Assembly (NCBI GenBank): GCA_016926595.1
Contig: JAFGOG010000473.1
Location: 1-32,863, forward strand
Source of the DNA: Anaerolineae bacterium
GTDB taxonomy: Bacteria; Chloroflexota; Anaerolineae; JAAYZQ01
Direction of reading: 5' to 3'
DNA: 32,863 bases
In this document: positions 112 to 30,671 of the stretch, piece after piece
How the letters are laid out: every line of letters starts with the position of its first letter
How positions within the stretch are numbered: position 1 is the first letter of the stretch
Notes under the pieces: model-generated
The model's input: only the letters and a program-made list of their open reading frames with translations
Database searches by the model: none
What the model was told of the DNA's origin: nothing
Translations under genes and position numbers: made by a program

Positions 112-2454
112 TTATACATCGTGTTCCTGCAAAGCCATGTAGATCTTTTCCGCGGTCAGCGGCATATCGTTAAAGCGGATGCCCAGCGCATCCGAGATGG
201 CGTTGGCGATCGCCGGCGCCGTGGCGATCATGGGATGCTCGCCAACCCCGCGCGCGCCCCACGGGCCGTCATCCTGCGGCTCCTCGACGTAATCGCTGAT
301 GATCCGCCGCGGCGCGTCCACGCTGGTCATGATCCGGTAATCGGTAAACGACGGGTTCAGCGGCTGCCCCTGGCGCAGCTGCAGCGCCTCCAGCAGCGCT
401 GAACTAGCGCCCTGCACCACCCCGCCCTCCAACTGGGCGTACACCTGCTCGGGGTTGATCGCCTTGCCCACGTCGTACACCGCCGCCAGGCGCAGGATCT
501 CTACCTGGCCTGTCTCGGTATCGACCTCCACCTCGACCGCCTGGGCGCCGGTGGTATAGTGCACCACGGCGCGCTGGCCCTGCCCCGTCTCCGCGTCCAG
601 GCCGGTGACATAGGTGGGCATAAACTTGCCGCGGCCGATGATCGGCCCGCCGATCCAACCCGCGTCGTCGGGCAGCGGCAGGCCATAGATAACCATCTTG
701 TCCAACGGGAGCGACTGCTCGCTGCGGTACGAGATCACCTCGCCCTCCCGGATATCCAGGTCCGCCGGCTCCTCGCCCCAATAGCGGGCTACGACCTCGA
801 GGATCTGGGCGCGCGCATCCTCGGCCGCGGCCTTGATCGCGTTGCCCATCGACCACGTGATCCGGCTGGCGACGGTCTGCCACTCATAGGGGCTGTACCT
901 GGTGTCGACCGGCTGCGAGATGCGCACCCACTCGTAAGGCACACCCAGCGCCTGGGCCGCGACCTGGGCGGCGACGGTGAACGCCCCCTGCCCCAACTCC
1001 TGCCCACCCAGGCCGACGCTGACCGTGGCGTCCTCGTTGAAACGCACCCAGGCCTCGGAGCCGGGGTTGGGCGGCATGGCCGGCGCCTTCCAGCAGGCGG
1101 CCATGCCCTTGCCGCGCCGCTTGTGCGGCGCCGATGGGACAGCCGACGCGCCCCACTCCACCGCCCGCGCAGCCTTTTCGATGCACTCGGAGAGCCCGTT
1201 AGGATGCATCTGCATGCCGGTGACGATGATGTCGCCGCCCTTGAGGCAGTTGCGCAGCCGGAACTCGACGTCGTCAACGCCCAGCGCCTCGGCCAGGCGA
1301 TCGACCGACTGCTCGATGCTCCAGTGGATCTCGGGCATGCCAAAGCCGCGCATCGGGCCGCCGACGGGATGGTTGGTGTACAGGCAGTAGGAATCAGTCT
1401 TGACGTTGGGAATGTGATAGGGGCCGGTCGAGGAATAACCCGCCGCGCGCACAATGTTGACCCCGTACTCGGTATAAGCCCCGGCATCCCAATAATACGC
1501 CACCTGCAGGGCCAGGATCTGGCCCTGGCGGGTGCCGCCGATCTTGACTTGAGCCAGCAACCCCTGGCGCACAAAGCAACAAAAGAACTCTTCTTCGCGG
1601 GTCATGCGAACCTTAACCGGCCGCCCACGCACCTTTTGGGCCATCGCCACGGCGAGGGCTTCCATCGAGACCCCGGCCTTGGACCCGAACCCACCGCCGA
1701 CATAGTTGCCAATAACCCGCAATTCGCCCTGCGAGATGCCCAGCGTCTGGGCGATCAGGTCACGCTGGGCAAAAGGCGATTGGGTGCTGCTCCACAGCGT
1801 CACCTCGCCCGAGACATCCCAGCGGGCCACGGCCACGTGCGGCTCGATCGGCACGTGCTGGATCTGCGGCACGTGGTAGGTTTCCTCGACGACGGCATCA
1901 CAACAAGCCCAGGCCGCGTCGGTGTCGCCCTTGCGCACGTGAAAGACGTTCGACACGTTGGTGCCGGGCTGAGGGAAGATAAAGGGCACCGCCTCATACG
2001 ATCCCAGGTCAGGGTGCAGCAGCGGCGCGCCGGGGTCCAGCGCCTCCAGCGGGTCAAAGATCGCCGGCAGCGGTTCATAGCTGACCTCGATCAGGCGCAG
2101 CGCATCCTCGGCGATCTCTTCGCTCACCGCCACCACGCCGGCGACCGGGTCGCCCACATAGCGCACGCGATCGGTGCACAAGATGTGGCGATCCTTGAGA
2201 TAGAGACCAATAAACCCAGGTGTGTCCTGACCCGTGATCACGGCTTTGACGCCAGGCAGGGCCAGCGCCTTGCTGGCATCGATGCCCGTAATCAGGGCGT
2301 GCGGGTGCGGGCTGCGCAGGACGCGCCCATAAAGCAGACCAGGCCCAAACTGCAGATCATCGGTGAACTGGGCCGCGCCGGTGACCTTGTCAAAGCCGTC
2401 GACGCGGGGGACGCTCTTGCCCACCGGTTCGAAAGTGAGTTTTTCGCGTGCCAT
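112..2454 (-). CDS. Xanthine-dehydrogenase-family molybdopterin-binding subunit
   Basis: Large catalytic subunit of a molybdenum hydroxylase, which inserts a water-derived oxygen into an aromatic N-heterocycle in the cytoplasm and passes electrons to the 2Fe-2S and FAD subunits encoded just upstream. The protein is about 780 residues, normal for the separate large subunit. The N-terminal third is the a/b hammerhead domain (VDGFDKVTGAAQFTDD). The molybdopterin domain shows the GGGFGSK loop, and GARGVGEHP near the C-terminus contains the glutamate (about residue 740) that serves as the catalytic base in this family. ATG codons lie at 2460 and 2454; the second is seven bases from GGGAG and is preferred. 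It is the last gene of the operon, separated from the 2Fe-2S gene by a repeat-filled gap. The substrate cannot be read from the sequence: purine, pyrimidine, nicotinate or another heterocycle are all possible. Confidence 0.95.
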   Translation of the reverse strand: MAREKLTFEPVGKSVPRVDGFDKVTGAAQFTDDLQFGPGLLYGRVLRSPHPHALITGIDASKALALPGVKAVITGQDTPGFIGLYLKDRHILCTDRVRYVGDPVAGVVAVSEEIAEDALRLIEVSYEPLPAIFDPLEALDPGAPLLHPDLGSYEAVPFIFPQPGTNVSNVFHVRKGDTDAAWACCDAVVEETYHVPQIQHVPIEPHVAVARWDVSGEVTLWSSTQSPFAQRDLIAQTLGISQGELRVIGNYVGGGFGSKAGVSMEALAVAMAQKVRGRPVKVRMTREEEFFCCFVRQGLLAQVKIGGTRQGQILALQVAYYWDAGAYTEYGVNIVRAAGYSSTGPYHIPNVKTDSYCLYTNHPVGGPMRGFGMPEIHWSIEQSVDRLAEALGVDDVEFRLRNCLKGGDIIVTGMQMHPNGLSECIEKAARAVEWGASAVPSAPHKRRGKGMAACWKAPAMPPNPGSEAWVRFNEDATVSVGLGGQELGQGAFTVAAQVAAQALGVPYEWVRISQPVDTRYSPYEWQTVASRITWSMGNAIKAAAEDARAQILEVVARYWGEEPADLDIREGEVISYRSEQSLPLDKMVIYGLPLPDDAGWIGGPIIGRGKFMPTYVTGLDAETGQGQRAVVHYTTGAQAVEVEVDTETGQVEILRLAAVYDVGKAINPEQVYAQLEGGVVQGASSALLEALQLRQGQPLNPSFTDYRIMTSVDAPRRIISDYVEEPQDDGPWGARGVGEHPMIATAPAIANAISDALGIRFNDMPLTAEKIYMALQEHDV

Positions 2455-2484
2455 AGCCATTCTCCCTATGAATGATGGGGCAGA

Positions 2485-2574
2485 TGTCGTTCGTCAAACG
2501 TCATTCGTCAAGACGTCATTCGCCAAAGTGCTGTGACGGATGACGTATCACGTTTGACGCATCACGTTTGACGC
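2485..2574. repeat. Interspersed palindromic repeat (CACGTTTGACG family)
   Basis: The gap between the 2Fe-2S and molybdopterin genes is filled with alternating copies of GTCAAACGTCATTCGTCA and its reverse-complement form TCACGTTTGACG. The same family forms a perfect inverted repeat at 29498-29537, and a looser relative lies at 6115-6142. The right end of this element runs into the 3' end of the 2Fe-2S gene. It encodes no protein. A role in mRNA stability or as a passive repetitive element is a guess. Confidence 0.75.
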
Positions 2575-3018
2575 CTTTTGCACCGCCTTGACGATGCGCA
2601 CGTACCCCGTGCAGCGGCAGAGGTTGCCCAGCAGCGCCTCGCGGATCTCGGCTTCGCTCGGGTCCGGGTTGCGGGCCAGCAAGGCATACGACGAGATCAA
2701 CATGCCGGGCGTGCAGAACCCGCACTGCACGCCGCCCTCGTCGATAAACGCCTGCTGGAGAGCGCTCAACCGGCCGTCCTCTGACAGTCCCTCGACGGTC
2801 ACGATCTGGGCTCCGTCGGTCTCCACCGCCAGGACCATACACGCATTGACCGGCTCGCCGTCCATCAGCACCGTGCACGCCCCACACTCGCCGGCGCCGC
2901 AGCCGTTCTTGGCGCCGGTCAGGGCCAGTCGGTCGCGGAGCAGTTCCAGCAAGGTCAAATTTGAGGGTACGTCTACGGTTTCCTGGTCGCCATTGATGGT
3001 CACCACGATGGAATGCAT
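2548..3018 (-). CDS. Xanthine-dehydrogenase-family 2Fe-2S subunit
   Basis: Small electron-transfer subunit of the molybdenum hydroxylase, carrying two [2Fe-2S] clusters. The N-terminal plant-ferredoxin-like domain has CGAGECGAC and a further Cys at NACM. The C-terminal helical domain has QCGFCTPGM and NLCRCTGY, so all eight cluster cysteines are present. The start at 3018 is chosen because GAGGAGG lies six bases upstream; a longer reading from 3048 would overlap the preceding gene. The stop of the Arr-like gene and this ATG are one base apart, implying translational coupling. The last eight residues (ASNVMRQT) and the stop codon are encoded by the TCAAACGTGATGCG repeat that fills the downstream gap, so the native C-terminus (probably ending near VQKA) has been replaced. 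Confidence 0.95.
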
Positions 3019-3019
3019 C

Positions 3020-3415
3020 TCAATCCTCCTCTGGCGGGCGTGCCGCACCTCGATCCCGGCGAGCGAGCCTCTCCTGGATCATCGCCATCTCGACGAGCGT
3101 CAGCCGCTCTGTTTCCCGGATGGCGACCAGGCCGATCAACTCGATCCGCAGCTCGCGCCGGGTCAGCCACTCCAGGCCGGGGGCCATCGACGAGCGCGGG
3201 TGCGGATAGACGTCGTCGGCGCCGACCGGCTCGGCGATGCGGTACAGCAGACCGGGCTGCGTGCCGTCGTGGCGGATGGCGCCGTCATCGTCCATGGACA
3301 CGATCGCCGGCTTGTGCGAAAAGATTTCGGCCAGGTGTCGATCGCGCGTGATCGTGCTGCCCGGGCGCAAGACGGTCAGCTCGAGCGGGGCGCCGTGATA
3401 CCAGGTCTCACCCAT
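3020..3415 (-). CDS. Small Arr-like (ADP-ribosyltransferase-like) protein inside the dehydrogenase operon
   Basis: A 131-residue protein of uncertain role. The start YHGAPLELTVLRPGS and the later segment GLLYRIAEPVGADDVYPHP resemble the opening HGT/YHG motif and the YxVEPxGPxxxDP segment of rifampin ADP-ribosyltransferase (Arr)-type folds; this likeness is by eye and not proven. A charged helical tail (residues about 100-131) follows. GGAGG sits six bases before its ATG, the ATG overlaps the FAD-subunit stop by eight bases (ATGGGTGA), and its own stop is one base before the 2Fe-2S start. It is therefore translated together with the two redox subunits and is unlikely to be a chance neighbour. 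It might modify a substrate or a subunit, or act in assembly. It could also be a fold relative without transferase activity. Confidence 0.75.
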   Translation of the reverse strand: MGETWYHGAPLELTVLRPGSTITRDRHLAEIFSHKPAIVSMDDDGAIRHDGTQPGLLYRIAEPVGADDVYPHPRSSMAPGLEWLTRRELRIELIGLVAIRETERLTLVEMAMIQERLARRDRGAARPPEED

Positions 3416-4325
3416 CGCGCGCCTCCAACCCGGCCCACACGTCGCGCAGCGCGCGCACGGTCAGCGTGCGCACCATCGCCGTGCGATAGGCGGCACCGGC
3501 CCGCACGTCGTCGATCGGCGTCGCGGACCGCGCCGCCTCTTCGGCCGCCTGGGCAAACAGCGCTGCCGACGGCGGGCGGGAGGCCAGCAGCGTCTCTGCC
3601 TGGGGCACGCGCAGCGGCACCGGCGCCACCGCGCCCAGGGCCAGGCGAAAGCGAGCGCCGCCCGGCGCGCTCGCGTCGGGAAAGCCCAGGGCCGCCACGC
3701 TGACCAACGCCAGGTCGCCGGCCTTGTTGCGTCCCAATTTCAGATAGCGGCCCACGCTCCCGGCCGGCGGCGTGGGAAAACGCACGGCGATCATGAATTC
3801 GCCGGCCTGGATCGCGCTCTGGCCCGGCCCCACAAAAAACGCGTTCGCGTCCACTAGGCGTTCCCCCGCCGGGTGGTCTGTACCCGCCGAACCATACAGC
3901 ACGATCTCACCGTCGAGCACCAGCGTAGCCGGCGCACCGTCAGCACAAGGCGACGCGTTGCAGAGGTTACCGCCCAACGTGGCCCGGTTGCGGAGCTGGT
4001 AGGAGGCGACCAAGCCGGCGGCCTCGGCCAGCAGTGGAAAGTGAGCCAGCACGTCGGCGTGGTTGGCCAATTGGTTCATGGTCACCGCCGCCCCAACCGC
4101 CAGCCCTTCTGCCGGCGCAAACGAGATGTCTCTCATACCCGGCAGGTATTTGACGTCGATCACCACCTTGGGCCGGACGGCGCCATTGCGCATACGCACC
4201 AACAGATCGGTGCCGCCCATCAACAGCCGGGCTGCCGGCCCGTATTCGCCCAGCAGGCGAACCACCTCGCCAGGCGTAGCCGGCCGGATGTACTCAAAAC
4301 TCGGGAGTCCGGGTCTGGCCAACAT
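3408..4325 (-). CDS. Xanthine-dehydrogenase-family FAD-binding subunit
   Basis: Medium subunit of the molybdenum hydroxylase. It binds FAD and hands electrons from the iron-sulfur clusters to an acceptor. The protein is about 305 residues, typical for the family. FAD-contact motifs are visible: LLMGGTDLLVRMR near residue 35 and ATLGGNLCNASPCADG near residue 115, both characteristic of the PCMH-type FAD domain; the C-terminal CO-dehydrogenase flavoprotein domain follows. The ATG at 4325 is chosen because GAGGAGG lies seven bases upstream; the frame stays open to 4445 but that extension lies in a palindrome-rich gap. Its 3' end overlaps the Arr-like gene. The gene order FAD, Arr-like, 2Fe-2S, Mo is a normal dehydrogenase order with one extra gene inserted. 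Confidence 0.94.
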   Translation of the reverse strand: MLARPGLPSFEYIRPATPGEVVRLLGEYGPAARLLMGGTDLLVRMRNGAVRPKVVIDVKYLPGMRDISFAPAEGLAVGAAVTMNQLANHADVLAHFPLLAEAAGLVASYQLRNRATLGGNLCNASPCADGAPATLVLDGEIVLYGSAGTDHPAGERLVDANAFFVGPGQSAIQAGEFMIAVRFPTPPAGSVGRYLKLGRNKAGDLALVSVAALGFPDASAPGGARFRLALGAVAPVPLRVPQAETLLASRPPSAALFAQAAEEAARSATPIDDVRAGAAYRTAMVRTLTVRALRDVWAGLEARDG

Positions 4326-4370
4326 GGCGCTTACCTCCTCTACCCGCATCATCGCAGGACACGTTCCATA

Positions 4371-4444
4371 CCTGCCAGGCCTGCCGCCTGTCGAGAGGCA
4401 GCCTGCGCCGTTGCGGGACACGGCTTTCCGTGCCAGGCCTGGCA
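4371..4444. repeat. Palindromic TGCCAGGCCTG repeats in the gap before the FAD subunit
   Basis: The 142-base gap between permease and FAD subunit contains CTGCCAGGC at 4372 and a perfect 14-base palindrome TGCCAGGCCTGGCA at 4431-4444 that abuts a run of A on the plus strand. The elements resemble the tandem GACCTGGCAGGTC units inside the DUF2877 gene at 10609-10644. The A/T run is on the wrong side of the palindrome to form an intrinsic terminator for the minus-strand operon. Confidence 0.6.
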
Positions 4445-4467
4445 AAAAAAACCAAGCGATCCACCGC

Positions 4468-5859
4468 CTATTCTGCGGACACCTGCGGCGGTTTAAAGAT
4501 CAAAAAGATGGCATTTAGCAAAATGCCGGCCACGGCGCCGGTGGCGATCGCCGGCCAACCGTAAGGAAAGACGCCCGGCAGCAGACGGATGGGCAGAAAT
4601 CCATCCGGGTAGCCGATGTGCCCGCCCACGCCGATGATCAGGATCACCGCCCCGACGGCAAGCTGCCGAGGGTCGAACAGGTTGACCTTTTCGGCCATCA
4701 TCAGGGCTACACCCTGCATGCCGATCACGCCAAAGAGATAGATAGCCAGGCCGCCGCTGACCGCGGTGGGCACACTTTGCACGATGCCCGCCAGCGTGCC
4801 GCTAAAGGAAAGCAAGATGGCAATGACCCCGCCGGCGATAAGCGCCGGCCCGGAATAGTTGCGGGTGATCACCATCAGCGAGTTGTTTTCGCCATAGTTG
4901 GTCCCCGCCACGCCGCCGAACAAGCCGTTGATCATGTCACCCAGTCCATCCAGGATCAGGTTAAAGCCAATGTATTCGCTCAATCCATATGCTTTGCGCT
5001 TCATCCGCGCTGCCAGCTCGTCCACGTACAGGCTGATCTGGTACAGGTGCGCAGTCGACTCGGGAATGGTGGCGATGGCCATCACGGCGATGCTGATGAT
5101 CGCCGTGGCCGTCATCTCGTGGCCGAAAGTAGGGAAGGTGATGTGCGGCGCCTGGATGATCTTGGCCGAGGTAATGGCGCTGAAATCGACCAGGCCCAGC
5201 GGGATGGCGACGATGTAACCGACGATGGCCCCCAGCAAGATCGGGATCATGCCGATGAACCCCTTGCCCTGCAGGTAGACTGAGAACATGATCGTCGCCA
5301 ACAGGGTGATGATGGCCACGAACCACCACCTGAGGTGGGCGTCGGGGGTGCAGCACAGGCCGGACGCCATATCCAGGGCCGACTTGCCCAGCGCAAAGCC
5401 GATGACCGCCGCCACCGACCCGGTCACGACCGGCGGCAGGATCTTGTCGATGGTCTTTTTGCCGCCTGCAAAGCGGATGATCGCGCCGACGATGATGTTG
5501 ACCAGGCCGGTGACGATAATACCGCCCTGCGCCACCCGGATCAGTTCGTCGGGCGCCGGCACCCCATAGCTGGCCTTGGTGATGGCCAACGTGGCGGCGA
5601 TATAGCTGAAACTGGAACCATAGTAAAGAGGAATGAACTTGCCAATCCGCCAGCGGGCGAGGATCAAGGCAACGATGGTTGCCACGCCGGAAGCGAACAA
5701 CACCGTGCTGACGTGAAAACCGACCAACAGCGCGACCAGCACCGTCGCCGGGAACATGGTCAGCACGTGCTGGAAACCCAATAGAATCAGCTGCCCGATC
5801 GGCGGAACGTCGTTAGGTAGATAGCCGAGCAGTTTTGTCTTGCTCTGTGAAGCGGCCAT
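4468..5859 (-). CDS. NCS2-family nucleobase (uracil/xanthine) permease
   Basis: Polytopic membrane transporter of about 463 residues, the usual NCS2 length, with roughly a dozen or more hydrophobic helices. It starts with LLGYLPNDVPPIGQLILLGFQHVLTMFPATVL, the hallmark opening of UraA/PurP-type permeases (the QHVLTMF segment), and contains FSYIAATLAI and VVTGSVAAVIGFALG, matching the TM3 and central half-helix regions. Members import uracil, xanthine, uric acid or related bases, probably with protons. The start at 5859 (MAASQSKTK) has GGAG eight bases upstream; an upstream TTG at 5892 in frame is less likely. Its place between ring-attacking enzymes and the molybdenum hydroxylase indicates that it imports the substrate of the pathway. 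Uracil versus purine specificity cannot be decided by eye. Confidence 0.93.
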   Translation of the reverse strand: MAASQSKTKLLGYLPNDVPPIGQLILLGFQHVLTMFPATVLVALLVGFHVSTVLFASGVATIVALILARWRIGKFIPLYYGSSFSYIAATLAITKASYGVPAPDELIRVAQGGIIVTGLVNIIVGAIIRFAGGKKTIDKILPPVVTGSVAAVIGFALGKSALDMASGLCCTPDAHLRWWFVAIITLLATIMFSVYLQGKGFIGMIPILLGAIVGYIVAIPLGLVDFSAITSAKIIQAPHITFPTFGHEMTATAIISIAVMAIATIPESTAHLYQISLYVDELAARMKRKAYGLSEYIGFNLILDGLGDMINGLFGGVAGTNYGENNSLMVITRNYSGPALIAGGVIAILLSFSGTLAGIVQSVPTAVSGGLAIYLFGVIGMQGVALMMAEKVNLFDPRQLAVGAVILIIGVGGHIGYPDGFLPIRLLPGVFPYGWPAIATGAVAGILLNAIFLIFKPPQVSAE

Positions 5860-5980
5860 AGAATGGACTCCTTTCTCGTGCTCATAAGACAACGTCGATT
5901 TGATCCTTCTCTTGCCGTACGGTACCTGTCAATCCTCTCCGCTGCCCCTCCTTTCTGCACCCCACAAAGAACACCAGCCA

Positions 5981-5995
5981 TTGTCTGGCAGACAA
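5981..5995. promoter_or_regulatory. Perfect 15-base palindrome, candidate operator
   Basis: TTGTCTGGCAGACAA is a perfect inverted repeat around a single central base, 122 bases upstream of the permease start. It has the size and TTGTC/GACAA ends typical of operators of FCD-type GntR regulators. No regulator gene is in the window, so the binding protein would be encoded elsewhere. The regulatory role is inferred. Confidence 0.4.
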
Positions 5996-6114
5996 ACGCT
6001 TCTAGCTGTGGAATCCGTTTCGTCACCACGCCAAATTGCCTTATCGCCACCGGATCGTAGACATCCTGCCTGGCCCAACTGCCTAAACCTGCGCCTGACG
6101 ACTGGCAGACCACA

Positions 6115-6142
6115 TCTCACGAATCACGCTTCACGTCTCACG
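6115..6142. repeat. Short CACG-type repeat
   Basis: Four successive units of the form TCACG(N)nCACG occur just past the cyclase stop codon. They resemble in spacing the TCACGTTTGACG repeats of 2485-2574 and 29498-29552 but are more diverged. Confidence 0.45.
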
Positions 6143-6160
6143 CCCAAGACCCCCAAGAGG

Positions 6161-7039
6161 CTAGGAGACCCTTGTCAACCGGCTGATCTGCTCCACGTGC
6201 CGGGGCTCGAAACAGTCGCCGAATCGTGTCTTGGGCAGCGCAGCCTTGCGCGCCATCAGCGCCTCATACTCCTCATCCTCGACAAAGGCCACACAGCGCC
6301 CGATGCACGACTCGCCGTCGACAAAGCGCCACGGGAAAAAGCCGATCGTTGTCCGCCGGTTGGCCAGCAGGTCGATATCGCCGCCGATGCATTCGGCGTG
6401 GATGATGTGATGGGGAAACATCTCGATGTGCATCAACTGGTACTTGTCGGGCGTAAAGCGCCTGGCCAACGTCGTGTCGTACATCTCTTGAAAGACACGG
6501 TCGGCCTCGGCAGCCTGGCGCGGCATCCAATCGCGGATGATCGTGTTCATAGGATGATCGGCGCTGCCACAGTCGACGCCGATCCAGCGGATCCCTTTGC
6601 GCCTGGCCCACAGGGCGAACTCGCGGTCTGGCCCCGGGTGCTTGACCATGTAGCGGATCTCGTCGGCGGTGGGCATATCCCAGCCAAAGTGGTGGTAGCC
6701 GGTGTGGACGATCAGGATGTCGCCCGTTTTGACCTCGACCCGCTCCTCGATCATGCTGGAGGTATAGATCTGATAGTCGCCCACCGCGTCCGACAGGTCA
6801 ACCACCACGCCCGGCCCCACCAGGAAATCGTTCAGGTCCAGCGCGGCGATGTCCTTGCCGGGGGTGAAAAAGTGGATCTCGCCGTCGAGGTGGGTGCCGA
6901 GGTGATTGGAATGGGTCACCACCTGCCCGTTGGCCCCGTTGGGCGCCAGCCGCTTGAAATACTTGATCTGCAGCGGCTCATAGGTGGGCCAGGGCGGGGT
7001 GCCGATGCCCAGGGGAATGGTCAAATCTACAAGTTTCAT
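6161..7039 (-). CDS. Cyclase-family (kynurenine-formamidase-like) metal-dependent hydrolase
   Basis: Predicted cytoplasmic amidohydrolase of the cyclase superfamily (PF04199), which includes kynurenine formamidase and isatin hydrolase; members use a divalent metal to hydrolyse cyclic or formyl amides. Residues 45-57 read SNHLGTHLDGEIH, the family's HxGTHxDxPxHF metal-binding signature with Pro replaced (GEIHF). At 292 residues it is longer than bacterial KynB (about 210), like the larger cyclase subgroup. AAGGAG lies seven bases before the ATG. In this operon it is the best candidate for opening the ring that the molybdenum hydroxylase has oxidised, and could replace the unrelated barbiturase or dihydropyrimidinase. 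The exact substrate is unknown. Confidence 0.88.
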   Translation of the reverse strand: MKLVDLTIPLGIGTPPWPTYEPLQIKYFKRLAPNGANGQVVTHSNHLGTHLDGEIHFFTPGKDIAALDLNDFLVGPGVVVDLSDAVGDYQIYTSSMIEERVEVKTGDILIVHTGYHHFGWDMPTADEIRYMVKHPGPDREFALWARRKGIRWIGVDCGSADHPMNTIIRDWMPRQAAEADRVFQEMYDTTLARRFTPDKYQLMHIEMFPHHIIHAECIGGDIDLLANRRTTIGFFPWRFVDGESCIGRCVAFVEDEEYEALMARKAALPKTRFGDCFEPRHVEQISRLTRVS

Positions 7040-7055
7040 CGTCTGGCTCCTTTTT

Positions 7056-7099
7056 CAATCCTGCAAATCCCGAAAATCCTGTTCATCCTGTCAAATCCC
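7056..7099. repeat. AATCCTG-type short tandem repeat
   Basis: The gap between the DUF1116 and cyclase genes holds five imperfect units of ATCC(T/C)G about nine bases apart. A second array of the same kind lies at 21111-21148 after the dipeptidase gene. Both are outside genes. Confidence 0.6.
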
Positions 7100-7101
7100 A
7101 C

Positions 7102-8517
7102 TCACCGGCACAGCGCCCGCACCGCCTCAAAGGCCTCAGCAAAACAGGGCGCCGGGGCGCGCAGCACGCCCGCGCCGACCATGCCGATCCCGGGCTCTTT
7201 GTGGGCAATGCCGGTGTTCAGGCGGGGCAGGATGCCCGTCTCGGCCACTTTGCGCACGTCGATGCCCAGCGGCGTGCCACGAAACCCAAGAGCGGGAATG
7301 GTAAAATGGGCGTGCTCGGCGAAACAGATCTCGTGCATTTCCAACGTCGCCTGCAGCGCCTCCTGTGGCGTGCCGCCGACAAAACGGGCGATCGCCGGGG
7401 CGGCAGCCATGGCCACGCCGCCAAAGCCCGCCGTCTCGGTGATCGTGCTGTCACCGATGTCGGGGTTGGCGTCCTCGGCGCTGAAACCCGGCAGGTATAA
7501 CCCTTCGACGATCCCGGCCGGGGCGACAAACCAGCGCTCGGGCATACACGCCACGCGGATGCCAAAATCGGTGCCGTTGCGGGCCATCACCGTGAGCAGC
7601 GTCGCCCCCTCGATCCCCTCCGCGGCCTCAAGCATCGCCTTGGCGGCGGCCATGGACAGGTTGAGGAAAAAGTGGTCGTTGCCCTCGATGAACTCAAACA
7701 CCTCCGCCGCCCGTTCGCGATCCGGGCAGGTGCGCAGGATCGCCGGGGTAATCGCCCGCAGAAAAAGCGAGGTGCCGGCCCGGTTGCGGTTGTGACACTC
7801 GTCGCCCATGTGCAGCGCCTGGGCGATCAGCGCCCGCAGGTCGATCCCGCCTCCAGGGCCGTTCGCGATCGCGGCAATGGCCGTGGCGAGGGTAGGATAG
7901 AGCGTCTGTTCCATCCAGCGCAGCCGCTCGTAGACGTCCGGCCCGAACGCGCCATAGCGCAGCACCCGCCCGAGCCCCTCGTTCTGGGTGGCATAGGCGA
8001 TGTTGCCAAACGCCGCGTTTTTGACGACAAAGACCGGCATAGAGGGCGACATGATCCCCGCCATCGGCCCAACGGCGTGATAATGGTGGCAGGGGGCGAA
8101 CGTGATCTCGCCGCTGGCCGCCAGCTCGGCCGCCTCGCGCTCGTCTTTCGCCCATCCCTCGTAGACCAGCGCGCCCATCACCGCGCCGCGCTGCGGGCCG
8201 CACATGCGCTGCCACGTGATCGGCGGCCCGGCGTGCAAGATCAACCGCTCGTGATAGCCAGGGATCGTCTCGCGGGCGATGCCCATGCCCACCAGCATGG
8301 GCCGCCCTTCCATGATGCGGGTGGCGGCCTCGTGGTTCGCCGCCTCGATCTCGATCCCGCTGCGCGTCACCTGCAGGCGAGGGGCGCGCGGCGGCTGCCA
8401 ATCAACCTGCACCACCGGCACGCCCTGCGCTTCCAGGCTGTTCGCGAACGCGCTCAAGCCGACGTTGACGACGTTGAGCGGCGCGCCAAAGAACGATTGC
8501 ATCTCTTGTTCGGCCAC
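7102..8517 (-). CDS. DUF1116 protein (YlbE/AllG-like), predicted carbamoyltransferase subunit
   Basis: 471-residue protein of the DUF1116 family, to which E. coli YlbE belongs. YlbE, FdrA and YlbF were shown in E. coli to form oxamate carbamoyltransferase (renamed AllFGH), which splits oxalurate with phosphate to oxamate and carbamoyl phosphate in anaerobic allantoin use. No textbook catalytic motif is recognised; the conserved-looking segments are GPPITWQRMCGPQRGAV (about residue 110) and a Gly-rich stretch ETAGFGGVAMAAAPAIARFVGGTPQEAL (about 365-395). The GTG start at 8517 follows AAAGGGA with suitable spacing. All three partners are present consecutively here (DUF2877, FdrA, DUF1116), which strengthens the assignment. 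Whether the acceptor is oxamate or a related amide is open. Confidence 0.9.
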   Translation of the reverse strand: MAEQEMQSFFGAPLNVVNVGLSAFANSLEAQGVPVVQVDWQPPRAPRLQVTRSGIEIEAANHEAATRIMEGRPMLVGMGIARETIPGYHERLILHAGPPITWQRMCGPQRGAVMGALVYEGWAKDEREAAELAASGEITFAPCHHYHAVGPMAGIMSPSMPVFVVKNAAFGNIAYATQNEGLGRVLRYGAFGPDVYERLRWMEQTLYPTLATAIAAIANGPGGGIDLRALIAQALHMGDECHNRNRAGTSLFLRAITPAILRTCPDRERAAEVFEFIEGNDHFFLNLSMAAAKAMLEAAEGIEGATLLTVMARNGTDFGIRVACMPERWFVAPAGIVEGLYLPGFSAEDANPDIGDSTITETAGFGGVAMAAAPAIARFVGGTPQEALQATLEMHEICFAEHAHFTIPALGFRGTPLGIDVRKVAETGILPRLNTGIAHKEPGIGMVGAGVLRAPAPCFAEAFEAVRALCR

Positions 8518-8538
8518 GGTCTGTCCCTTTCGCGCGCT

Positions 8539-8575
8539 TTAGAAACCGGGCTTTTGACAAAAGCCCGGTTTCTAA
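8539..8575. repeat. Perfect 17-base-pair hairpin spanning the fdrA stop codon
   Basis: TTAGAAACCGGGCTTTT at 8539-8555 and its exact complement at 8559-8575 enclose a three-base loop. The fdrA stop codon (8572-8574) lies inside the right arm. The hairpin occupies most of the fdrA-DUF1116 gap, leaving the DUF1116 ribosome-binding site just beyond it. It is probably a dispersed palindromic element; it may also serve as an mRNA-processing or partial-termination site within the operon. Confidence 0.85.
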
Positions 8576-10119
8576 GCCACAATAAACCCCGCCAGCCGGG
8601 TGGCGGCGGCGTTGCACGAGGCAACGATCGCCCCCGCCCCCTCCAGGGCTTGCACCTGGCGGCTCAACCGCTGCGGATCCGCTTCCGTGCCGGTCACCGA
8701 CGCGACGACGATCAGCTCGCGCCCAGCAGCAGCCGCCAGCGCGCGCGCCTGGCCGATCGCCGGCGCCAGCTCGCCCGCCGGGTCGGGGTGCGCGCCATAG
8801 CCCAGCACCACGTCGAGCACGACCACCGCCACCTCTGGATCGGCGGCCTCTTGCAGCAGGCGGCGAATACGCAGGTCGTTGTCGATCATCGGGTGGGGCC
8901 GGCCGACGGTGAATTCGTCTTCACCCAGGTCCACGGCGCAGTGCCCCACGCTGCGGGTCGCGTTTGCCAGCGGCCTGGCGCCGGACACGTTAGAGGTGAG
9001 ACCCTCCAGACTCTCCTGCCAGATCACCAGCGCCTCGGCGGCCAACGTGCCCCCGCTGAACAGCCCGCGCAGGTAAACCTGTCCCGGCCGCAGGCGTCCC
9101 TTCCATTCGCCAGCACGGGCGAGCAGCTCTGCCCTCTCGCGCTCGATGACCTCGTCGGCCTCCATATCGATGGCACCCGCCAGCCGTGCTGCCAGGTAAG
9201 CCGCTTGCTGCAGCGTGCGCGCCGGGATCAGGCCAGCTTCGATGACAGGCGCGGGATCGCCCCCCAGGAAACAAACCACCGTTGGCCTGGCGCCCTGCCT
9301 CGCCTGGGCCAGGACGCGCCTGGCAACCTCAGGCGCAGGTGGCTTGGAGACGAGCAGCAAGATCCGCGTCTGCGGATCGGCCTGCAGGGCGGCGATGCCA
9401 TGCATCATCATCATCCCGCCGACCTGCGGTTTGAGGTCGCGCCCGCCGACGCCGATCCCGTGGCTGATCCCGACGCCAAGCCGGGCCAGCAGCGTGCTCG
9501 CCTCTTGCAGGCCGGTCCCGGCGGCGGCGACAATGCCCACCGGCCCGCGCGGGACGGCGTTGGCAAACCCTAGCGCCACGCCATTGAGGATCGCCGTGCC
9601 GCAGTCGGGCCCCATCATCAGCAGGTCGTGGGCGATAGCATAGCGCTTGAGCGCCACTTCCTGCTCGATCGGCACGTTGTCGCTGAACAAGAGCACGTGC
9701 AGCCCGCTGTGCAGCGCCTCCCACGCCTCGGCAACGGCATAACGCCCGGCTACCGAGATGATCGCCAGGTTGGCGCCGGCATGGCTGTGTACCGCACCGC
9801 GGATCGTGCGTGGTTGAAAAACGGTTCCTGTCGCCGACGTTTGGGGACGCCGGGCCAACTGCGCCTGGACGTGTGCGATCGCCTGTTCGGCCGCGTCGTC
9901 ATCCTCGGCGCGGACGACGACAACCAGGTCATTGGCCGTAGCGCTTTCGATCTCGGGGAGGAGCAAGCCGGCCTCGCGTAGAATGGACAGGTTGGCCGGG
10001 GTGGCCATGACCGCGGCGGCGTCGAGCACGCCAGGCAGCCGGGTCAGCTCACGGGCCGTTTCCATCAGCCTGACCGAGTCGTGGTATTCGCTGTTCCTGA
10101 TCATCGATCGGGTACTCAC
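8572..10119 (-). CDS. fdrA: FdrA-family protein, predicted carbamoyltransferase subunit
   Basis: 515-residue protein with the succinyl-CoA-synthetase / NDP-forming acyl-CoA synthetase fold. Seen: MGPDCGT at residues 169-175, GTGLQEAS at 201-208, and GISHGIGVGGRDL with His220, at the place of the phosphohistidine loop in succinyl-CoA synthetase alpha subunits. A C-terminal domain with a Gly-rich VVVLDVVLGYGAHPDPAGEL segment follows. In E. coli FdrA is one of three subunits of oxamate carbamoyltransferase; the fold suits a phosphoryl or carbamoyl phosphate intermediate. The GTG at 10119 is chosen because AAGGAGG lies just upstream (five-base spacing); the frame itself is open to 10209. The stop lies in a perfect hairpin. 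The 5' end overlaps the DUF2877 gene by 71 bases. Confidence 0.92.
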   Translation of the reverse strand: MSTRSMIRNSEYHDSVRLMETARELTRLPGVLDAAAVMATPANLSILREAGLLLPEIESATANDLVVVVRAEDDDAAEQAIAHVQAQLARRPQTSATGTVFQPRTIRGAVHSHAGANLAIISVAGRYAVAEAWEALHSGLHVLLFSDNVPIEQEVALKRYAIAHDLLMMGPDCGTAILNGVALGFANAVPRGPVGIVAAAGTGLQEASTLLARLGVGISHGIGVGGRDLKPQVGGMMMMHGIAALQADPQTRILLLVSKPPAPEVARRVLAQARQGARPTVVCFLGGDPAPVIEAGLIPARTLQQAAYLAARLAGAIDMEADEVIERERAELLARAGEWKGRLRPGQVYLRGLFSGGTLAAEALVIWQESLEGLTSNVSGARPLANATRSVGHCAVDLGEDEFTVGRPHPMIDNDLRIRRLLQEAADPEVAVVVLDVVLGYGAHPDPAGELAPAIGQARALAAAAGRELIVVASVTGTEADPQRLSRQVQALEGAGAIVASCNAAATRLAGFIVA

Positions 10120-11104
10120 CTGTCCCTCCTTCGGGTGGACTATACCACGTGCGGCAGCCGGCCAGGCACAAGAAACCGAGCAACGCATCGGCGCCCGAAC
10201 TCGCGCCACAAGCCAGGATGCGATGCGCAGCCTGCGCCAAGCGAACCTCCCGGGTTTGCGCGTCGCCCCCGCTGCGCGGCCCGGCCACGGCCGCCAACAG
10301 CGACTGCCACGCGGCGCTGCACTGCCCTCCTGCCGCGGCGCGCAGAAAGGCAGCCGAAAGGGCCGTGGTCAGCGGCGCCGCCATCCCGGCAAGCGTGCAG
10401 CAAAACGCGCCGGGCTCCGGATGAGCCAGCCAGGCCCACAGCATCGCACCGACGAGGAAATCATCCCCGGCCGGGGTCAGACCGCCGCCCAAGCCGGCCA
10501 AAGCAGTCGCGCCCGCGCGCAGGCGCCGTCGATCGCCCTGCCAGCCGGCGCACAGATCGACCCGGGCTTTACGGGCGCGATCCAGTGTGGCTGCCTCAAG
10601 TGCGCTTTCAGACCTGGCAGGTCTGGCAGACCTGGCAGGTCTTGAGCTGTCCGTGGTGCAGCCATCAAGCAGTGGCGCAAATACGCTGTGTCTGGCGTGA
10701 CGCGCACAGATCTGGTACAGATAGTCTATGCAGGCAGGCCTACTGCACGAACCCAAGGGCAAACATGAGACGCAGCGGGCACGCAGCACCTGCCAATCGG
10801 GACACGGTTCCCACACCGCCGCCGATTCGAGATCGATCTCGAGACGGCCAATGGTGATCCGCTCTGGCGCCGACGTCACATGGGCGCCACCGTCGATCGC
10901 GTTCAAATCAGCCGTTTCTTCGAGCACGACGTTGAGCGGCCCGTCGCCCACCTCGGGCGTCACCAGCGCGACGATCTCGCCACCATCGGTGACCAGGTTG
11001 CAGGCCGAACGGAAAACAGAGAGCGTCTGGACGATGGACTGCCCTTCATCCAGCCACGTTTTCGCCTGCCGGCTGATCGATCGTGCGGCAACCTGTGCGG
11101 TCAT
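10049..11104 (-). CDS. DUF2877 protein (YlbF/AllH-like), predicted carbamoyltransferase subunit
   Basis: 351-residue protein, first gene of the operon. The family signature GGGLTPAGDDFLVGAML is at residues 206-222. DUF2877 proteins accompany FdrA and DUF1116 proteins; the E. coli set makes oxamate carbamoyltransferase. ATG at 11104 follows GGGAGAAGG. Two oddities are visible. Residues about 154-166 (RPARSARPARS) are encoded by two tandem 18-base palindromic repeats that keep the frame, in a region that looks like a surface loop. The last 23 or so residues overlap the start and ribosome-binding site of fdrA and look unlike a folded protein end, so either the C-terminus is a disordered extension or a frameshift near 10140 has moved the stop. 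Confidence 0.88.
   Translation of the reverse strand: MTAQVAARSISRQAKTWLDEGQSIVQTLSVFRSACNLVTDGGEIVALVTPEVGDGPLNVVLEETADLNAIDGGAHVTSAPERITIGRLEIDLESAAVWEPCPDWQVLRARCVSCLPLGSCSRPACIDYLYQICARHARHSVFAPLLDGCTTDSSRPARSARPARSESALEAATLDRARKARVDLCAGWQGDRRRLRAGATALAGLGGGLTPAGDDFLVGAMLWAWLAHPEPGAFCCTLAGMAAPLTTALSAAFLRAAAGGQCSAAWQSLLAAVAGPRSGGDAQTREVRLAQAAHRILACGASSGADALLGFLCLAGCRTWYSPPEGGTGEYPIDDQEQRIPRLGQADGNGP
10609..10644. repeat. Two tandem 18-base palindromic repeats inside the DUF2877 gene
   Basis: CAGACCTGGCAGGTCTGG is followed directly by CAGACCTGGCAGGTCTTG. Each unit is a near-palindrome (AGACCTG/CAGGTCT). Total length 36 bases, so the host reading frame is kept, encoding an Arg/Pro/Ala/Ser repeat. 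Related TGCCAGGCCTG elements lie at 4371-4444. Confidence 0.85.
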
Positions 11105-29561: not shown

Positions 29562-30671
29562 TCACCTGCCCGCATCCACCTGCTTGAGCATCTTGAGAAA
29601 CGCCGCCGCATCCTCCGGCTCGTTTAGCTGGCCGATGTGCGAGACCACCAGCATAAACCCCTTGCCCCCCAGGTTCTCGACGATCGTCCTGGCCCCGTCG
29701 GGGCTGACAAACACCTGGCACAGCTTGCCGCCGTCGCGGATCCGGCTTAGCAAGGGCAGCCATTGATCGGGCGGAGGCTGACCGTCGCCCGGGATCCACT
29801 GGACGCCGCGCAGCCGGTCGATCGCCAGCAGCATATCGAGATGAGGAATTTCACCTATGCCGTCGAGATGGTAAAAGCCGTGGTCCAGGTGCGCGCAGCA
29901 CGCTTCCAGGTCGGGCACCACAAAATGTTCAAACATCGCCGGCGAGATCATGTAGGAAAAGTCGCACTGCAGCATATAACACTTGCCCGGCGACCAGATC
30001 GGCGTCCAGCAGCTCGTGCCGCGACATGGCGGGCGAATGACCGCTTCCTGCTCGTCGTAATAACGCAGCCACAGCGCCGTGATCTCACCCACCAACCGCT
30101 CGACCTCCTGCGGTTGGTCGATCAGGTCAACCAGCAGCTTGTCGGTCGCGCGAAGGGAGGCCAGGATGTCGAGGTTGCCGCCCAGGTCGGTGTGCCCAAC
30201 CGCCACCTGGCCCTGCCAGCGCGCGGCGACCTCGGCGGTCACGGCCTGCACCCGCTTCCACCATAGGTTGTGGGCATCATACTCAAGATGGATGTCCGGC
30301 AGGTCAGCTTCACGCGCCGGGCTGAACCAGGTGGTTTCCGAGGGCTCGGTCATACAATTGACTGTCGCGCCGACAAACCCGGCCATGATCCCCGGCCCAA
30401 AGTTGATCCACAGCCACGGAAACGCGTCGCCGTAGAAACGGGTTGCTGCCAGTACAGGTTCATACAGATCGACGACCTCGTTTGCCGGCATGGATAGGGG
30501 ATAGTTGCTCATGAACCCGTAACGTTTGCCCGATGGTTGCGAACCCATGCGGTGCGATTCAACCGCCCCCGAGAACAAGACCAGGGGGCGATCCAGTTCT
30601 CCCCCCCACCAGGCGACTGTGTCACGTTCGACCCGTTCCCAATCTTGCTGGGTAAAATGCAGTTCGGCCAT
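29562..30671 (-). CDS. Uroporphyrinogen-decarboxylase-like (MtaA/CmuA-superfamily) protein
   Basis: 369-residue TIM-barrel protein of the URO-D superfamily. Seen: WINFGPGIMAGFVGATVNCMTE, VAVGHTDLGGNLDILASLRATDKLLVDLIDQPQEVERLVGEIT (typical of the superfamily), SPAMFEHFVVPDLEACCAHLD and FYHLDGIGEIPHLDMLLAIDRLRGVQWIPGDG, where the HLDG segment matches the central H-x-CG metal region of methyltransferases (His, Asp here). It is unlikely to be the haem enzyme HemE, because the conserved HemE N-terminal Arg segment is missing. Relatives are methyltransferases that use methyl-corrinoids, or proteins of unknown role in sugar clusters. No corrinoid-protein gene is nearby. The start follows GAGGGA. 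It stands between GH127 and DsrE genes. Confidence 0.82.
   Translation of the reverse strand: MAELHFTQQDWERVERDTVAWWGGELDRPLVLFSGAVESHRMGSQPSGKRYGFMSNYPLSMPANEVVDLYEPVLAATRFYGDAFPWLWINFGPGIMAGFVGATVNCMTEPSETTWFSPAREADLPDIHLEYDAHNLWWKRVQAVTAEVAARWQGQVAVGHTDLGGNLDILASLRATDKLLVDLIDQPQEVERLVGEITALWLRYYDEQEAVIRPPCRGTSCWTPIWSPGKCYMLQCDFSYMISPAMFEHFVVPDLEACCAHLDHGFYHLDGIGEIPHLDMLLAIDRLRGVQWIPGDGQPPPDQWLPLLSRIRDGGKLCQVFVSPDGARTIVENLGGKGFMLVVSHIGQLNEPEDAAAFLKMLKQVDAGR

Follow-up and report, generated by a model that had tools for sequence, protein, structure and literature searches.

Gene organization of the operon

The window analyzed here, a stretch of 32,863 nucleotides from an Anaerolineae bacterium (contig JAFGOG010000473.1), carries a minus-strand operon that probably serves the energy-conserving breakdown of pyrimidines. 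The list of open reading frames (ORFs), together with Pfam and NCBIfam profile searches, revealed nine open frames lying head to tail from 11104 to 112. In this direction they encode AllH, AllF, AllG, a PF04199 cyclase, an NCS2 permease, the FAD subunit of a molybdenum hydroxylase, a small protein (orf131), and the 2Fe-2S and molybdenum-cofactor (MoCo) subunits of the hydroxylase.

The carbamoyltransferase subunits were encoded together by three contiguous genes, comprising an AllH-like subunit (DUF2877) at 10049..11104 (PF11392, E 3.4e-19), the AllF (FdrA) subunit at 8572..10119 (NF004760, 480 bits, above the cut-off of 433) and the AllG subunit (DUF1116) at 7102..8517 (PF06545, E 2.5e-96). 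Next came the predicted ring-opening hydrolase, a PF04199 cyclase designated CYC-A (6161..7039; E 2e-31), and the NCS2 permease (4468..5859; PF00860, E 3.9e-58), in which residue alignment revealed UraA-type uracil-binding residues. The hydroxylase was represented by its FAD subunit at 3408..4325 (FAD_binding_5 and CO_deh_flav_C), its 2Fe-2S subunit at 2548..3018 (Fer2 and Fer2_2) and its MoCo subunit, a predicted uracil hydroxylase of the MoCo-A type, at 112..2460 (Ald_Xan_dh_C and MoCoBD_1/2).

A Shine-Dalgarno-like stretch preceded eight of the nine chosen starts, including that of the permease, the exception being AllG. The listed starts of AllF, NCS2, FAD and 2Fe-2S are probably too early, because such stretches lie upstream of better starts at 10119, 5859, 4325 and 3018; the likely start of AllF is a GTG codon at 10119 with GGAGG upstream. 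With these starts, AllH and AllF overlapped by 71 nt, followed by gaps of 54 nt (AllF to AllG), 62 nt (AllG to cyclase), 301 nt (cyclase to NCS2) and 142 nt (NCS2 to FAD). FAD and orf131 overlapped by 8 nt, orf131 and 2Fe-2S were separated by 1 nt, and 2Fe-2S and MoCo by 87 nt. An earlier note on this DNA had described nine same-strand genes with short gaps or overlaps; the shared strand was confirmed, and the short spacing held everywhere except at the two gaps flanking the permease. The transporter, hydroxylase, ring hydrolase and three carbamoyltransferase subunits that it had named were all recovered by Pfam or NCBIfam matches. It had also remarked that no carbamate kinase or allantoin gene was present, and the Pfam scan agreed, finding none among the 29 window ORFs scanned (smaller ORFs lay outside the scan). 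The hallmarks of the E. coli-type operon, allD and an adjacent carbamate kinase, were likewise absent among these 29 ORFs.

Conservation of the gene set in relatives

One genome per species was scanned for the cyclase, which gave 346 confirmed loci, and the best 80, mostly labelled Chloroflexota/Anaerolineae, were used for comparison (loci and genomes are cited by L and G numbers). Neighbor matches were dropped under 30% coverage or 28% identity, and under 25% for both in the scan that covered L119-L128. All eight genes other than orf131 occurred in window order in L079, where a set of GNAT, thiolase and OB-fold genes was inserted. L003 and L006 retained seven of the eight, without AllH, in window order with other genes inserted. 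Among the recognized neighbor matches of the 80 loci, 374 of 385 lay on the strand of the cyclase. Because the order was kept in these three loci and nearly all neighbors shared one strand, the gene set is not a product of chance. The nine-gene operon of the earlier note is thus better described as eight genes that recur together in relatives, with orf131 as a passenger.

AllF or AllG was found in 40 of the 80 loci, a window-type MoCo subunit (at least 55%) in 36, NCS2 in 23 and AllH in 21, and 12 loci had an ABC importer of the nucleoside type (Bmp with an ATPase). In 20 loci the cyclase was accompanied by a MoCo subunit as well as by AllF or AllG. We also surveyed 150 genomes from the class of an Anaerolinea thermophila metagenome-assembled genome (MAG), and 301 genomes from the phylum. 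In the class sample, AllG was present in 52 genomes and the cyclase (E<=1e-40) in 55, with both in 49 (Fisher p 5e-29; the Fisher values given here treat genomes or loci as independent, and relatedness makes them too small). The co-occurrence that the earlier note had proposed as a check was therefore borne out, with the cyclase in 49 of 52 AllG genomes and missing from three. The window-type cyclase (E<=1e-150) occurred in 39 of the 150 genomes, 35 of them with AllG. The phylum sample contained AllG in 56 genomes, the cyclase in 60 and both in 42; its eight genomes with a window-type cyclase all had AllG. The typical cluster was also seen in L035 and L064, labelled Burkholderiales and Herpetosiphon, which are likely mis-binned contigs.

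Carbamate kinase scored above its cut-off in 27 of 29 cluster genomes. The gene is available rather than diagnostic, and we set it aside as a discriminating marker since it is frequent in genomes without AllG too (74 of 98).

Permease, hydroxylase and cyclase

The permease was 36% identical to UraA, 24% to XanQ and 27% to UacT. In UraA, Glu241 and Glu290 bind uracil together with the backbone amides of Phe73 and Gly289, and His245 interacts with Glu241, as described in PMC5539350. All five residues were kept in the 21 sequences aligned, namely those of the window, L119 and 19 cyclase loci (19 of the 23 NCS2-bearing loci were kept, since matches of <=1,200 nt were dropped). The same positions read F, E, D, A, Q in XanQ and F, E, M, S, Q in UacT. 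Since the UraA binding residues are kept, unlike in XanQ and UacT, the alignment points to a uracil-like substrate.

The hydroxylase had the MoCo, FAD and 2Fe-2S subunits expected of the xanthine oxidase family, and its closest solved relative was 4-hydroxybenzoyl-CoA reductase. We aligned 13 of the 36 MoCo-A loci with the window; two of them end before the catalytic Glu (GxGE), and the other 12 rows all have it. Directly after GG[FV]GxK, at the position of Glu802 in bovine xanthine oxidase, all 14 MoCo-A rows have Ala, against Gln in E. coli XdhA and XdhD. With Ala at this position and the catalytic Glu kept, the enzyme belongs to the family but looks unlike a typical xanthine dehydrogenase. 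Near the cyclase in L029 and L058 there was a third type of hydroxylase, which has Glu following GGAFGG[KR]; that of L029 scored best on a PucD-type xanthine dehydrogenase model. A cytosine-deaminase-like amidohydrolase was present in L021, L024 and L029, the last of which also encodes a TadA-like deaminase.

PF04199 was the sole Pfam family matched by the window ring opener, in which the stretch HLGTHLDGEIHF contains the motif HxGTHxD...H, presumably the metal-binding-type motif of PF04199 cyclases. Residues H46, G48, T49, H50, D52 and H56 were invariant in 18 of 18 aligned sequences. The nearest solved relatives were kynurenine formamidases (E about 1e-8), and 2,946 of 3,658 candidates were homologous at E<=0.001. 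The window cyclase did not match the AtzD/barbiturase family PF09663, which was found in none of the 150 class genomes and in no control genome either; its proposed barbiturase-like function does not depend on membership of that family. In L045, L067 and L075 the cyclase adjoins a gene of the aldehyde ferredoxin oxidoreductase family, possibly a further variant.

Carbamoyltransferase subunits

The window subunits were 38% (AllF), 49% (AllG) and 27.5% (AllH, over 287 aligned positions) identical to those of E. coli. Solved relatives were 3dmy for AllF and 3clq for AllG, and AllF also matched the alpha subunit of succinyl-CoA synthetase. The E. coli trio is described as the purified oxamic transcarbamylase, with oxalurate as the substrate of the tested enzyme (PMC11326118).

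A stretch close to the N-terminus of AllG (window 8390-8517) resembles the C-terminal end of E. coli AllF, at 44% over 27 residues. The same stretch corresponds to FdrA model positions 502-539, past the end of the window AllF match, which suggests that a piece may have moved between the two subunits. AllF and AllG are apparently fused as one long frame in some relatives (L015:5159-8254), and long, fusion-like AllG frames of 995 (G056), 1169 (G011) and 929 (G446) residues were also seen.

Tail modules and a second cluster type

Further genes that could act after ring opening were found in the relatives. The 80 cyclase loci included 15 with a carbon-nitrogen hydrolase (amidase), 8 with a type III CoA-transferase and 16 with carboxyltransferase, biotin carrier or OAD beta genes. 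We link these tail genes to the cluster because of their gene order. The amidase lies between AllF and AllG in L002, L123, L124 and L128. In L127, the carboxyltransferase, biotin carrier and OAD beta genes are followed 46 nt on, on the same strand, by AllF and AllG matches. In L017 (7.2 kb), the carboxyltransferase, biotin carrier, cyclase, AllF and amidase share a strand, opposite the CoA-transferase. The OAD beta protein of L032 scored 447.6 on the model for the beta subunit of Na+-translocating decarboxylases, exceeding its cut-off of 190.6. These families fit a sequence of steps from malonamate through malonate and malonyl-CoA to acetyl-CoA. From known chemistry, a malonyl-type decarboxylase would be expected after a six-membered pyrimidine (C3), not after oxalurate (C2).

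In other loci the cyclase was followed by a thiolase (34 of 80 loci), a partner with an OB fold (31) and a protein of 229 residues (30). All three occurred together in 27 of the 34 thiolase loci, both forms of the third being counted. The thiolase was nearest to acetyl/acetoacetyl-CoA thiolases. The model of the 229-residue protein (predicted local distance difference test score, pLDDT, 86) showed a GNAT fold with 209 PDB matches at E<=0.001, and nearly all of the 50 listed among these were N-acyltransferases. The 34 thiolase loci and the 29 loci with an amidase, CoA-transferase or decarboxylase did not overlap (p 4e-10), and 17 loci had neither. Because the two kinds of genes never share a locus, the thiolase/OB-fold/GNAT set is an apparent alternative tail. 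In the AllG tree, from which AllG matches of <=1,100 nt were left out, both kinds of tail were found within a single clade of 22 rows (support 99/95); the tails have therefore been swapped on a common front end.

In a second type of cluster, AllF and AllG were accompanied by another hydroxylase, sharing 31-35% identity with the window enzyme, and by a fused double cyclase whose open frames were mostly 550-610 residues long. Nine such regions (L119-L126, L128) contained the amidase in three cases and the CoA-transferase in two. Their AllG formed a separate clade of 20 rows (100/100), which also included L015 and L113, where no double cyclase was seen, and L125, whose cyclase is single (42%). 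Both types were neighbors on the same contig of the A. thermophila MAG (L119, L072), and its second-type cluster (L119) encodes a UraA-type permease 67% identical to that of the window. AllFGH-type genes thus stand beside two related front ends.

Proposed pathway

Because the permease has UraA-type residues, the tail of relatives is of the C3, malonyl type and no AllD was found above its cut-off, we propose, with a probability of roughly 60%, that the operon supplies the first half of an oxidative breakdown of pyrimidines that conserves energy, in which uracil would pass through barbiturate to ureidomalonate, to be split with phosphate into malonamate and carbamoyl phosphate. The NCS2 permease would import uracil, and possibly thymine, and the MoCo/FAD/2Fe-2S enzyme would hydroxylate uracil to barbiturate. 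The PF04199 cyclase may then hydrolyze barbiturate to ureidomalonate (3-oxo-3-ureidopropanoate), the job of an AtzD-type barbiturase elsewhere, leaving the phosphate-dependent cleavage to AllFGH. A carbamate kinase encoded elsewhere would make ATP from the carbamoyl phosphate. In relatives, the amidase could yield malonate, the type III CoA-transferase malonyl-CoA, and a biotin-dependent Na+-pumping decarboxylase acetyl-CoA and CO2, steps that here would presumably be served from other loci. Still other relatives would use the thiolase/OB-fold/GNAT module in place of the malonyl-type tail.

The type of pathway is well supported and its substrate moderately so, each reaction and substrate being read from genes. 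The general logic of the earlier note (pyrimidine import, hydroxylation, ring opening and phosphorolysis of an acyl-urea) gained comparative support. Its particular case of uracil, barbiturate and ureidomalonate is favored over oxalurate by the UraA residues, the C3 tail, the lack of AllD above cut-off and the carbamate kinase in relatives, with the reservations that this kinase is common in the class anyway and that the barbiturase and uracil dehydrogenase roles are predictions. A larger picture is more tentative, and we would give it somewhat less than even odds. It holds that uracil is fermented in Chloroflexota along a novel oxidative pathway that conserves energy twice (in the AllFGH phosphorolysis of ureidomalonate, with ATP made by way of carbamoyl phosphate, and in a Na+-pumping malonyl-CoA decarboxylase), in which the PF04199 cyclase would be a new barbiturase and MoCo-A a uracil dehydrogenase, and the tail after malonamate would have been swapped at least once for the thiolase/OB-fold/GNAT module.

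Several observations weigh against the uracil pathway. AllFGH is known only for oxalurate, as far as the source describes it (PMC11326118), and AllFG is not tied to one hydroxylase, because the second cluster type also carries it. The best NCBIfam model of the permease was uracil permease at 240.9 bits, under the cut-off of 477. Similarly, the carboxyltransferase scored best on mmdA (734 bits, cut-off 998.8) and the CoA-transferase on succinate--glutarate CoA-transferase (415.8, cut-off 750). A neighbor search of the window found none of the tail genes, and no tail module was found in 17 of the 80 loci, some on cut contigs. Six of the 55 class genomes with the cyclase lacked AllG. Strong carbamate kinase matches were present in 47 of 52 class genomes with AllG and also in 74 of 98 without it (p 0.03), and only one of the 80 loci (L013) contained the gene. 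Lastly, AllD-family matches below cut-off occurred in 77 of the 150 class genomes, and in G001 such a match (201 bits) lay about 3 kb from AllG.

Alternative readings

The same scheme might act on another ring, such as thymine, a modified pyrimidine or another six-membered ureide, leading to methylmalonamate, propionyl-CoA or similar products. The best model of the carboxyltransferase is in fact a methylmalonyl-CoA decarboxylase, and the two cluster types, with different hydroxylases but a shared AllFG and UraA-type permease (L119), could be uracil and thymine versions. We regard this as unlikely, as the front enzymes show no sequence sign of a methylated substrate.

In a C2 route, a hydantoin- or parabanate-type substrate would be hydroxylated and opened to oxalurate, from which AllFGH would form oxamate and carbamoyl phosphate, and the amidase and CoA-transferase oxalate and oxalyl-CoA. 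Oxalurate is what the tested AllFGH uses according to PMC11326118. The type III CoA-transferases include oxalate CoA-transferase, whose model gave 287 bits, and in one genome an AllD relative scoring below the cut-off is located some 3 kb away from AllG. We consider this route improbable and less likely than the uracil route, given that the decarboxylase genes in 16 of the 80 loci are of the biotin-dependent methylmalonyl/malonyl-CoA type rather than the oxalyl-CoA type, and that the permease residues are those of a uracil transporter. AllD (ureidoglycolate dehydrogenase) also scored above cut-off in none of the 150 class genomes; among the controls, 4 of 14 matched, E. coli first, and one was above cut-off. 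Oxalurate derived from allantoin was set aside, with no allantoin gene among the scanned ORFs and this same absence of AllD.

AllFGH might instead attack the other carbonyl, with malonyl phosphate (or malonyl-CoA) plus urea as products. This would agree with the resemblance of AllF to succinyl-CoA synthetase alpha and with the GNAT and thiolase, CoA-linked folds, that neighbor AllF in many loci. We hold this very improbable: an amide product is what the amidase between AllF and AllG in four loci would lead one to expect, and the E. coli enzyme forms carbamoyl phosphate. Least probable of all is purine catabolism, with a xanthine dehydrogenase and a cyclase acting on a purine breakdown product, for although the hydroxylase family includes xanthine dehydrogenases and the other-type hydroxylase beside the cyclase in L029 scores best on a PucD-type model, MoCo-A has Ala at the position of bovine Glu802 in 14 of 14 aligned rows and the permease is not of the XanQ/UacT type.

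Comparison with known systems

The window shares all three subunits, encoded by contiguous genes, with E. coli AllFGH, which works with AllK (PMC11326118). The window differs in that no AllK was found adjacent and the scanned ORFs included no allantoin genes, and in that a molybdenum hydroxylase, a cyclase and a permease of the uracil type stand beside the three subunits. It differs also in the C-terminal AllF stretch of E. coli, found here near the AllG N-terminus. In the classical oxidative pyrimidine pathway, as outlined in PMC3758960, an AtzD-family enzyme opens barbiturate and ureidomalonase forms malonic acid and urea. Barbiturate and ureidomalonate are thus shared with our proposed intermediates, whereas here a PF04199 cyclase and phosphorolysis would take over.

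The uric acid cluster XdhD-YgfK-SsnA-HyuA-YgeW-YqeA of E. coli, according to the account in PMC12507026, similarly combines a molybdenum enzyme, ring openers, a phosphorolytic carbamoyltransferase and a carbamate kinase for ATP; it differs in its purine substrate, its reductive direction and its carbamoyltransferase YgeW, which AllFGH is said not to resemble (PMC11326118). The genes allFGHK have been reported next to triuret genes in comammox Nitrospira, as well as in some Nitrososphaerales, with a proposed role in oxalurate use (PMC12625717). There too allFGH lies outside an allantoin operon, and the available part of that report mentions no operon with a molybdenum hydroxylase, cyclase and uracil permease. 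A ureidoglycine carbamoyltransferase has been proposed in a purine module, as outlined in PMC4016543. The Na+-pumping methylmalonyl-CoA decarboxylase (MmdA, TIGR01117) shares the carboxyltransferase, biotin carrier, OAD beta and gamma with clusters of relatives; it was not found in the window, and the carboxyltransferase of relatives scored under the mmdA cut-off and has a predicted substrate only.

No description of the proposed pathway or of this gene combination was found among the titles and abstract openings listed by searches of open-licence PMC papers. What would be new is the combination: an established transcarbamylase complex and a pathway concept already described would be brought together with another kind of ring-opening enzyme and a cleavage by phosphate that saves energy. 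If the proposal is correct, it would name genes for the oxidation of uracil to barbiturate, add a second, unrelated barbiturase family, extend the range of AllFGH from oxalurate to a pyrimidine product and show how Chloroflexota could draw energy from the bases of RNA. AllG occurs in 52 of 150 class genomes, so the pathway might contribute to the recycling of nucleic acids wherever these bacteria abound.

Orf131 and the remainder of the window

Orf131 (3020..3415) had no family match in the Pfam and NCBIfam searches, and tblastn at E<=0.01 gave no match in the 128 fetched loci, so it is a passenger outside the conserved system, not kept in the clusters of relatives. Its 61 homologues elsewhere included none with a precomputed Pfam domain. 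The predicted model (pLDDT 80) weakly resembled Arr-type (rifampin) ADP-ribosyltransferases (E 0.019), with nothing at E<=0.001, and this assignment was set aside because the structural match is weak. Lone small genes between cluster genes were seen in various Chloroflexota, namely a PDDEXK_3 family gene, a Uma2 protein and orf131 itself; such inserts lie at L006:10882-11313, L043:12067-12435, L053:12470-13213 and window 3020-3415.

A tRNA and Rfam search of the window gave no tRNA and no Rfam match above the gathering score. Between 11604 and 32705 the window also encodes a 369-residue protein without a Pfam match (29562-30671), GNATs, an SDR, an RraA-like protein and a PCC-domain protein. 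Polysaccharide genes were abundant in this part, including GH3, GH10, GH4, GH127 and a BD-FAE esterase.

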